A DNA stretch of 64,000 nt from Methanolobus chelungpuianus (GTDB lineage: Archaea; Halobacteriota; Methanosarcinia; Methanosarcinales; Methanosarcinaceae). Shown one piece after another: positions 40,641 to 43,569 of this stretch (positions within the stretch are counted from its first letter, which is position 1; each line of letters opens with the position of its first letter). Both the position numbers and the translations under genes were made by a program. The stretch lies in contig NZ_JTEO01000001.1 of NCBI RefSeq assembly GCF_024500045.1, positions 62,001 through 126,000 on the forward strand. The letters are read 5' to 3'. The notes under the pieces were generated by a model, which saw nothing but the letters and a program-made list of their open reading frames with translations, made no database searches and was not told where the DNA came from.

Positions 40641-41762
40641 TTAAAAGAGCACTATCCTGTTCATGTCAATGCGGATCCTGCAGGCATCTCCGGTCTGGAG
40701 ACCCCTGTTCTCCAGAAGCTGATTTGGCACTTCAGCAAAAAGCAGGTCCTGATGCTCAGGCACTTCAAGAGCCATCAGTCTGCTCGATCCCTTATTGATC
40801 GTGCTCCTCACAGATGCGCTGAAAATATTGCTCTCCTGTGTAGTGCCTTCCATATCTTCCCGGAGAATACGGATGTTCTCAGGCCGGATGCCCCAGGATG
40901 TCCTGTCCCCTGTTCTCAGTCCGGTATTGTTGGCTTTTATCAGCATTTCCCCGCTCTTCAAAAGGACAGTGCCCGACCCGTTATCCGCTTCCACCACTAC
41001 GGCGTCGCCGAAGATGTTGGACATGCCCACAAGTTCGGCAACATGCCTGTTGTTGGGATGGTAGAATACTTCCTCGGGCGTGCCTGTCTGCTGCACGCGC
41101 CCTTCATGGAAAACCACCACCTTATCAGCTATTGTGAAAGCTTCCACATGGTTGTGCGTGATAAAGAGTACCGGTATCCCGAGCTCTCTCTGTATCTGCT
41201 TGATCCTTTCCCGGAGTTTCATGCGGACGATCATGTCCAGCGCCGAGAAGGGTTCGTCCAGCAGCAGGATATCGGGTTTCGGGGCCAGCGCGCGGGCCAG
41301 CGCTACCCTTTGTTTCTGTCCTCCCGACAGCTGCGAGGGGTAATTGTCCTCAAGGCCCTCGATATGGAGCAGGTGCAGCATCTCCCGGACCCTTCTGTCC
41401 TTTTCCTCCTCGCCCCATCCTTTCAGGCCGTAGGCTATGTTCTTTTTGACATCCATGTGGGGGAAAAGGGCATAGTTCTGGAAAACGTAGCCTAGACTGC
41501 GTTCCTGGACCGGAAGGTTGATCTGCTTATGGCAGTCGAAGTACGTCCTGTCATTGACTATTATCTTACCGCCATTTGGTTCCAGCAGCCCTGATATGCA
41601 CTGGAGGGTCGTGGTCTTCCCGGAACCGGAGCGTCCGAAAAGTACCACCAGCTCGTTGCCGGCCTCGAACTTGGCATCAAGCAGGAAAGCCGGCTCTATA
41701 CCTCTCTTCTTATCGCTCTTCTTCCTGTAGTACCGTTTCCTGAAATCCACTCTGATGCCCAT
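40641..41762 (-). CDS. modC: Molybdate/tungstate ABC transporter ATP-binding protein
   Basis: A 373-residue ATPase that powers uptake through ModB. Walker A GRSGSGKT at 43-50, Q-loop VFQNYALFPH, signature LSGGQKQR, Walker B LLLDEPFSALD, and switch His in FITHNHVEA. The C-terminal 130 residues form TOBE-type domains (TSWGIRPENIRIL, then FSASVRSTINKGSSRLMALEVPEH), usual for ModC and thought to bind oxyanion. The N-terminal 20 residues are unusually basic. It follows modB by nine bases; a molybdate rather than tungstate preference is not readable from sequence. Confidence 0.93.
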   Translation of the reverse strand: MGIRVDFRKRYYRKKSDKKRGIEPAFLLDAKFEAGNELVVLFGRSGSGKTTTLQCISGLLEPNGGKIIVNDRTYFDCHKQINLPVQERSLGYVFQNYALFPHMDVKKNIAYGLKGWGEEEKDRRVREMLHLLHIEGLEDNYPSQLSGGQKQRVALARALAPKPDILLLDEPFSALDMIVRMKLRERIKQIQRELGIPVLFITHNHVEAFTIADKVVVFHEGRVQQTGTPEEVFYHPNNRHVAELVGMSNIFGDAVVVEADNGSGTVLLKSGEMLIKANNTGLRTGDRTSWGIRPENIRILREDMEGTTQESNIFSASVRSTINKGSSRLMALEVPEHQDLLFAEVPNQLLENRGLQTGDACRIRIDMNRIVLF

Positions 41763-41771
41763 ACTTCCTCC

Positions 41772-42443
41772 TCATATCCTCCAGCTGTTAACAAGTTTTG
41801 CAGTCACGGCCATGGAAAGGAAAGATATTGCCACGAGTATGATGACCAGCATATTGGCAAGCTCGCTGTTGCCTGCCTGGAATGCGCTGTATATAGAGAT
41901 CGACATTGTGTTGGTCCTTCCCGGGATATTGCCGGCGACCATGAGCGTTGCACCGAATTCCCCCACGGCCCTTGCAAAGCTCAGGACGATGCCTGCAAGT
42001 ATGCCCTTTCTGGCAAGCGGGAGCGTAATGAAGAGTGCAGTGTCAAGCTCCTTCCTTCCCAGGGTGAATGCTGCATATTCGAAATCCCTGTCCACGGCCT
42101 CGATGGCTGCCGTGGTGGTCTTGACCATCAGCGGAATAGACACTATGAAAGCCGCAATGGCAGCGGCCTCCCAGGTGAATAGTATGCTCCATCCTGTTAT
42201 GTTGTACAATATGCTGCCAAGAAAGCCGTTCCTGCCCAGGAGCACCACCAGCAGGTAACCTGTCACCGTGGGTGGAAGCACAAGGGGTAAAGTAACAAAG
42301 ATGTCTGCAAGCCATTTTCCCCTGAAATCACGTCTTGCGAGTATATATGATATGATCACGCCTGCCAGCGCCACTGCAAGCGTGGATATTACCGCAATTT
42401 TCAGTGTAATTGAAAGGGGGAACCAGATCTGTTCTATCATCAC
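41772..42443 (-). CDS. modB: Molybdate/tungstate ABC transporter permease
   Basis: A 223-residue membrane permease with about five or six helices. The coupling-helix motif RAVGEFGATLMVAGNIPGRTNT is the ModB/CysT signature, and LPLVLPPTVTGYLLVVLLG is also typical. It lies between modA (91 bases upstream) and modC (nine bases downstream). An AT-rich ACATATATTTTGG just upstream and an inverted repeat in the modA-modB gap may influence its expression. Confidence 0.94.
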   Translation of the reverse strand: MMIEQIWFPLSITLKIAVISTLAVALAGVIISYILARRDFRGKWLADIFVTLPLVLPPTVTGYLLVVLLGRNGFLGSILYNITGWSILFTWEAAAIAAFIVSIPLMVKTTTAAIEAVDRDFEYAAFTLGRKELDTALFITLPLARKGILAGIVLSFARAVGEFGATLMVAGNIPGRTNTMSISIYSAFQAGNSELANMLVIILVAISFLSMAVTAKLVNSWRI

Positions 42444-42534: not shown

Positions 42535-43341
42535 TCACTCGCTCTGAGGAATGCTGAACCCATATTGTTCCAGTATGGTTCTGCCGTTCTCTCCCGTCAC
42601 GAAGTCCACAAATCTCTGTGATTCTTCGAGATGCCGGGTGGATGAGACAACAGCTATTGGGTATGTGACGGGTGTGCTCACGGGGACAGAGGTTACCACT
42701 TCAATTGTATCCCGCCGTGCAGACGATGCGTCGGTGCTGAACACAAATCCCGCATCAGCTTCTCCCATTTCCACGTAGACAAGCACCTGCTTCACGTTCT
42801 CTCCCATGAGCATCTTGCCTGAAACGCTGCCCCACATCCCGGCGCTGACTAGTGATTCCCTTGCATATTTACCTGCGGGCACTGTCTCCGGATTCCCTAT
42901 CGCTATGTTCCTGACATCGGACCTCGTAAGGTCTTCCATGCCTGTGATCCCAAGACCGTTACCCTTTGGGACTATCAGCACGAGGGAGTTCTCCACGAAA
43001 TCCTCTCTTGTATCGTTATGTATCAAGCCCTTTGATGCAAGCATGTCCATCTGGTCCCGGGCAGCCGATGCAAACACATCTATGGGCGCTCCGCCCTCGA
43101 TCTGTGACCTGAGGGTTCCCGATGACGCAAAGTTGAAAACGACATCTATGCCCGGATTATCTGTTTCGAACTCCTTCTCCATTGCTGTGAAAGCTTCGGT
43201 AAGGCTTGCAGCAGAGGATACTGTTATTGTTGTGTTCTGCGTCGGCCTTGTACCTGTGTCAGTGTCCGTACATCCGCTCACAAAGAGCCCCATCGTTAAG
43301 ATGGCTGCAATAGCCAGGATCAGTTTTTTGCTTAGTGCCAT
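42535..43341 (-). CDS. modA: Molybdate/tungstate-binding lipoprotein
   Basis: A 268-residue exported solute-binding lipoprotein. Lipobox FVSGC gives Cys24. The mature part is a type II periplasmic-binding protein of the ModA group: TITVSSAASLTEAFTAMEKEFE, NFASSGTLRSQIEGGAPIDVFASA, DVRNIAIGNPETVPAGKYARE, GEADAGFVFSTDA and VTYPIAVVSSTRH. First gene of modABC. GGAGGAG before the ATG at 43341 decides the start against an open frame reaching 43428 that runs through the operator. Confidence 0.94.
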   Translation of the reverse strand: MALSKKLILAIAAILTMGLFVSGCTDTDTGTRPTQNTTITVSSAASLTEAFTAMEKEFETDNPGIDVVFNFASSGTLRSQIEGGAPIDVFASAARDQMDMLASKGLIHNDTREDFVENSLVLIVPKGNGLGITGMEDLTRSDVRNIAIGNPETVPAGKYARESLVSAGMWGSVSGKMLMGENVKQVLVYVEMGEADAGFVFSTDASSARRDTIEVVTSVPVSTPVTYPIAVVSSTRHLEESQRFVDFVTGENGRTILEQYGFSIPQSE

Positions 43342-43391
43342 GATTGTTACTCTCCTCCGGTAGCCTGAATAACGACAAAGATAATTTCCTA

Positions 43392-43415
43392 CGTTATGTC
43401 CGACTGTACATAACG
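43392..43415 (-). promoter_or_regulatory. ModE-type operator upstream of modABC
   Basis: CGTTATGT-CCGACTGT-ACATAACG is a perfect eight-base inverted repeat with an eight-base spacer. It closely resembles the bacterial ModE site, recalled as CGnTATATA-N6-8-TATATAnCG. It lies 50 bases before the modA start, exactly over the transcription start expected from the TATA box at 43433-43441, so a bound repressor would block initiation. No ModE gene is in the window. Confidence 0.65.
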
Positions 43416-43432
43416 GTCTCTTCCTCATTTTA

Positions 43433-43441
43433 CTATAAGTA
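43433..43441 (-). promoter_or_regulatory. TATA box of modABC
   Basis: On the minus strand ACTTATAGT preceded by an A-rich element lies about 25 bases before the inferred transcription start near 43411. The start would fall inside the ModE-like palindrome. Confidence 0.5.
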
Positions 43442-43549
43442 GTTTTCTGAAGGGGGATTCTGTTAAGTTAAGGAGTACGGACTAATGGATGAACCCACAT
43501 GAATCAGGTAGATATCTGGGATCAGAAAATTATACATTAAAACAGAAAA

Positions 43550-43569
43550 AAGCAGCATCACGGCTGCTT
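43550..43569 (-). terminator. Hairpin terminator of the cyclophilin gene
   Basis: On the minus strand AAGCAGC-CGTGAT-GCTGCTT, a perfect seven-base-pair stem, starts nine bases after the stop codon and is followed by TTTTCTGTTTTAAT. Confidence 0.6.

Follow-up and report, generated by a model that had tools for sequence, protein, structure and literature searches.

A probable ModE-type operator at the modABC promoter of Methanolobus chelungpuianus and a single-Mop regulator encoded elsewhere in its genome

The modABC operon and its promoter

The window analyzed here, a stretch of 64 kb from Methanolobus chelungpuianus, carries a molybdate uptake operon on its minus strand. The modA gene (42535-43341) encodes a molybdate-binding lipoprotein of 268 amino acids (TIGR01256, 205.6 bits against a cut-off of 62.5; PF13531), modB (41772-42443) a permease (TIGR02141, 233.6 bits against a cut-off of 182.6), and modC (40641-41762) an ATP-binding subunit with a C-terminal TOBE domain (PF00005 and PF08402). 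ModA and ModB scored above their NCBIfam cut-offs, while ModC remained below its own (TIGR02142, 252.8 bits against 285) and yet has both the ABC and the TOBE domains. By direct reading, CGTTATGT-N8-ACATAACG forms a perfect inverted repeat with a spacer of 8 at 43392-43415 on the minus strand, and the full 24-mer is CGTTATGTCCGACTGTACATAACG. The longest modA open reading frame, which extends to 43428, would span this palindrome. However, the start that aligns in relatives is the ATG at 43341, 50 bp past the palindrome. Because this start is conserved and a Shine-Dalgarno-like GGAGGAG precedes it at 43352-43358 on the same strand, the palindrome belongs to the promoter or the 5' untranslated region.

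A TATA-like box had been placed at 43433-43441 in a preliminary description of this DNA, and TACTTATAG is indeed read there on the minus strand. From its sequence and the genus alignment, we regard it as the likely TATA box of the modABC promoter. It lies just upstream of the palindrome, 18-26 bp before it, and a TATA-like stretch is similarly placed across the genus alignment. At the archaeal TATA-to-start distance, about 26 nt from the centre of the box, transcription is expected to begin at 43408-43413 (minus strand), inside the palindrome. Given this spacing and its recurrence throughout the genus, the palindrome should cover the transcription start.

Resemblance to the E. coli operator

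Palindromy alone is unremarkable, since the window holds three perfect 8-N8-8 palindromes. We therefore used an independent query, the arms of the E. coli K-12 modA operator taken from the genome record (L103:2547-2570). Compared with the site in the window, 15 of their 16 bases are identical and a single one differs, and the spacer is 8 in both. The claim of the preliminary description that a perfect palindrome here closely resembles the bacterial ModE site was thus borne out. When the whole window was scanned with the E. coli arms, the site was the best match with 15/16 and the next best reached 12. In 200 synthetic windows generated by a first-order Markov model with the same dinucleotide make-up, the maxima were 11 (25 windows), 12 (136), 13 (37), and 14 (2), and none reached 15. 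The site was also the sole match with three or fewer mismatches in the 64 kb, against a mean of 0.11 in shuffled sequences. What stands in the promoter of this molybdate uptake operon is an inverted repeat of the E. coli kind with the right spacing.

Conservation before modA

We examined conservation in a set of 40 genomes, 25 of which belong to the genus, including that of the window. Relatives of modA were found in 38 of them, and the 30 loci listed by the search were examined. In all 24 modA loci of the genus, an operator that matches in 14 or more of the 16 arm positions lies 72-94 bp ahead of the start of the modA match, while 600 control segments reached at most 11 and 1500 mononucleotide shuffles at most 13. 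Conservation in related species had been named beforehand as a test that could refute the proposal, and the proposal came through it. A chance palindrome, for which the other perfect palindromes in the window might speak, is refuted by this same placement in 24 of 24 loci and has a practically negligible likelihood. The 25th genome of the genus (G017) has no close modA and carries a 16/16 site before a second binding-protein gene. The operators of G012 and G020 are the weakest of the 24, both at 14/16, and the latter persists despite a broken modE gene.

Outside the genus, the operator was absent from the six order-level modA loci (at most 10/16), five of which come from genomes in which no ModE was detected. 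In G036, which does encode ModE, the C54 copy of the two modA genes is without a site. We also scanned 18 loci on named contigs (15 archaeal and 3 bacterial; six further bacterial loci, L034-L039, were left out). At least 13 of the 16 arm bases were found in 14 of the 15 archaeal loci and in none of the three bacterial ones. Seven of these archaeal contigs were counted as the same as contigs of the genome set, which leaves eight independent loci outside the genus, seven of them with at least 13. A modA locus of a Methanosarcina metagenome-assembled genome (L033) has no site.

The alignment of the genus sequences also bears on whether the palindrome acts as DNA or RNA. Being at or just past the expected start, it would be at least partly transcribed, and it might be envisaged to act in the modABC leader as a hairpin or riboswitch. 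However, the downstream half ACATAACG hardly varies, with 23 or 24 of the 24 sequences agreeing at every position. The TATA-proximal half is slightly variable, and six of the 24 sequences have G in place of A at position 5. None of the eight pairs changes on both sides in the 24 sequences, whereas a genuine RNA helix beside such a site elsewhere, described below, does covary. A search of 43250-43560 against Rfam gave no match up to E 1, either to the Moco riboswitch or to any other family. These three observations, the lack of compensatory pairs, the nearly invariant half, and the lack of an Rfam match, argue for a protein-bound DNA motif, and we rejected the RNA reading of the operator as very improbable.

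A single-Mop ModE-type regulator

The genome of the window (2.6 Mb in 71 contigs, 99.99% complete) contains one ModE match (G000:C4:130588-130824). The preliminary description had stated that the window has no modE gene and had proposed a search of the genome for a ModE-type homologue. This match answers both points as far as the search reaches: it is the only one in the genome, lies on contig C4 and not on that of the window, and was recovered again when an alignment of archaeal and E. coli ModE served as the query. The proposal also came through its second refuting condition, the lack of a ModE homologue. The open reading frame (L001:1246-1785, minus strand) encodes 179 amino acids, with a winged helix at residues 17-95 and one Mop domain at 110-176. 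The helix-turn-helix domain matched TIGR00637 with an E value of 4e-17 and 63.3 bits, below the curated cut-off of 98.5. That cut-off was passed by just two of the seven control genomes with a match, among which were Methanosarcina acetivorans and E. coli. The Mop domain scored 60.2 bits with TIGR00638, above the cut-off of 55, and 57.3 bits with PF03459. Relatives of the protein in the PDB include E. coli ModE (1o7l/1b9m), 2ijl, and Mop and di-Mop proteins. In an alignment with E. coli ModE the identity is 26%, and the ISYKxAW helix, GGK, and the Mop residues SARN, T148, and K168 are kept.

E. coli ModE has two Mop domains, according to the available part of a published account (PMC545781), and its row in our alignment is longer, as would fit two such domains. 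The archaeal protein has the winged helix and a Mop domain and lacks the two tandem Mop domains of canonical ModE. Among 30 ModE loci examined, 28 gave an open reading frame with SYKxAW, of 177-203 amino acids by the first Met, and each of the 28 has one SARN-type motif; no such frame was found in the other two (L049 and L056). Because of this single Mop domain and the uniform count of one motif in all 28 frames, we name the protein, as judged from its sequence, a single-Mop ModE-type regulator and not a canonical ModE. In G020, in-frame stops and a shift of frame interrupt modE (L162 / G020:C14:21972-22501), which lies in two pieces.

Co-occurrence of ModE and its sites

ModE was found in 32 of the 40 genomes, including the broken copy of G020. 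All seven order-level genomes that bear ModE (G027, G030, G031, G032, G035, G036, and G038) have a site with two or fewer mismatches shortly before a molybdenum/tungsten uptake gene or a moeA gene, which encodes MoeA. Among the eight order-level genomes without ModE, such a site in context was seen in only one (G039, 61% complete, before a binding-protein gene). In both G026 and G034 a single site lies inside a coding frame, and G025, G028, G029, G033, and G037 have none. This co-occurrence in the 15 genomes, 7/7 against 1/8, has a Fisher p of 0.0014. Raw counts of order-level sites at two mismatches showed no excess over the reversed-pattern control (13 against 12), so that gene context carries the argument. 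That context involves some judgement: in G027, G032, and G035 some sites fall inside a mechanically called frame whose internal start was judged to be the true one, and the uptake genes of G031, G032, and G035 were assigned by reading the translations, without a family search. Overall, the site is kept where ModE is present and absent where it is not, with the exceptions of G039, the C54 copy in G036, and L033.

In G030 (L150) and G038 (L151), which belong to another family of the order, modE adjoins tupA-like or moeA genes whose promoters bear operators, and the regulator is thereby linked to its targets there.

ModE binding to the palindrome is a prediction from sequence, and the palindrome could in principle belong to an unrelated regulator. 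The close sequence match with the E. coli operator and the co-occurrence with ModE speak against this, and we consider it very unlikely. We counted against the ModE reading itself the score of the helix-turn-helix domain under the cut-off, the one Mop domain, the separation of modE from modABC in this genome, the raw order-level site counts, the C54 copy in G036, L033, the 14/16 sites of G012 and G020, and the broken modE of G020. Taking these results together, the palindrome is very probably the operator of a ModE-type repressor controlling modABC, whose metal-loaded dimer would sit over the transcription start.

Other candidate targets in the genome and the genus

The preliminary description had also proposed a search for further copies of the palindrome. 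This turned up no second target: three further sites exist in the genome of the window, each with three mismatches and inside a coding frame, and because the reversed-pattern control gives 10, we took them as chance matches. The modABC operon is the only credible ModE target found in this genome, and its operator the only intergenic copy found.

The 27 genomes of the genus that were searched contain 71 sites with two or fewer mismatches, against 23 for the control. We opened the regions of such sites in relatives (20 and then 13 stretches) and applied Pfam to one or two representatives per gene group. Besides modA, the sites precede modA2 (a second molybdate-binding-protein gene), Peripla_BP_2 genes, and genes for S-layer-domain proteins; the genome of the window has no such further sites. 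Peripla_BP_2 genes of the FecB/BtuF type with sites were seen in G001, G005, G006, G008 (two sites), G019, G022, and G041. The sites lie 31-33 bp before the gene in L131, L135, L143, L144, L145, L149, and L136, and farther in L146. These genes are candidates for a second route by which the genus takes up molybdate or tungstate. In G001, G004, G005, and G006 (L130, L132, L134, and L148), sites precede genes that encode S-layer-domain (PF07752) proteins of roughly 410-450 amino acids; metal control of such a cell-surface protein would be unexpected.

A leader RNA beside the modA2 operator in relatives

Directly past the modA2 operator of relatives lies a conserved element of 62 nt, which comprises the consensus CTCCGAACATTGCTACTT and then a hairpin of 11 bp. 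Copies include L133:3427-3512 (G001), L139:3529-3614 (G002), and 17 further ones, for example in L138, L140, and L165-L173. The stem covaries: in 19 aligned copies, 8 of the 11 pairs change on both sides, a number that none of 500 shuffles reached and that compares with at most 2 in slid controls. A covariance model found strong copies in 18 genomes of the genus and in G122, out of 185 genomes of the order, and no copy in the genome of the window. Weak matches in G036 and G143 (E 0.003 and 0.009) were excluded from the count. Six loci tested against Rfam 15 gave no match to the leader RNA up to E 0.1.

In six genomes (G002, G007, G008, G011, G013, and G021), no modA2 follows the element within the stretch examined. 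The element without the gene adjoins the same pyridoxamine-oxidase-like gene, as read from its translation, that neighbours modA2 in G001, G004, and G019. Because the neighbour is the same with and without modA2, the gene appears to have been lost in these six genomes while the promoter, the ModE site, and the RNA stayed. We searched the 27 genus genomes for trans targets, as complements of the conserved 5' stretch with two or fewer mismatches. Sixteen of the 22 matches were the element itself, and the remaining six, in six different genomes, showed no pattern as far as the match positions tell. We raise only tentatively the idea that the ModE regulon of sister species includes a free-standing small RNA. 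If true, this would mean that molybdenum controls a small RNA in archaea. Neither the FecB-type and S-layer targets nor the leader RNA were met in the literature searched; the searches were not aimed at the first two, and we do not claim that any of these is unpublished.

Proposed switch and comparison with known ModE systems

The operator sequence, where it lies, how well it is conserved, the regulator gene, and the co-occurrence of the two were observed directly; from them we infer binding, its ligand (molybdate or tungstate), repression, and the transcription start. When the metal is plentiful, molybdate (or tungstate) would be bound by the single-Mop ModE, whose gene lies in another part of the genome, and the ModE dimer would occupy the two CGTTATGT half-sites. 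The bound dimer would cover the start of transcription just past the TATA box and block either the recruitment of RNA polymerase or the start itself, whereby modABC would be turned off and metal uptake would stop. When the metal is scarce, ModE would be released from the operator. ModE might instead bind without being a simple molybdate co-repressor, for example by responding mainly to tungstate or by acting as an activator. Similar sites precede tungstate-type transporters in G030 and G038 (PBP_like_2 binding proteins, TupA-like by reading), and a dual regulatory role is annotated for E. coli ModE. However, the site is placed over the expected start and not on the upstream side of the TATA box, a placement that favours repression over activation, and we hold this alternative to be rather unlikely while giving it some weight. 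Repression by metal-loaded ModE would provide a concrete metal switch for a methanogen, in whose genome only one credible target site was found.

A ModE-type switch is already known in bacteria and already reported for archaea. By its title, a 2003 paper of Studholme and Pau (BMC Microbiol 3:24) reportedly describes an element recognised by ModE as conserved in Archaea. The archaeal operator shares with that of E. coli 15 of 16 arm bases, the 8-bp spacer, the position before modA, and the modABC gene order. The promoter is of the sigma-70 type in E. coli and of the TATA type in the archaeon. The E. coli operator ends 19 bp before the modA start, whereas the archaeal one lies 50 bp before the start codon, and modE is close to modABC in E. 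coli and unlinked in the genome of the window. Control of modABC by ModE in Methanosarcinales is stated in the accessible portion of a 2022 paper (PMC9765008). As far as the available part of another account goes (PMC545781), the modDABC site of Geobacter sulfurreducens resembles the E. coli consensus, as does the archaeal site. In the same part, Desulfovibrio is described with sites of the form CGGTCACG-N14-CGTGACCG and a ModE that consists of the DNA-binding domain only, without Mop, in contrast to the single Mop domain of the archaeal protein. The operator is nearly letter-identical in a bacterium and an archaeon, despite their different promoter machineries and an archaeal regulator predicted to bind metal with one domain where the bacterial one has two.
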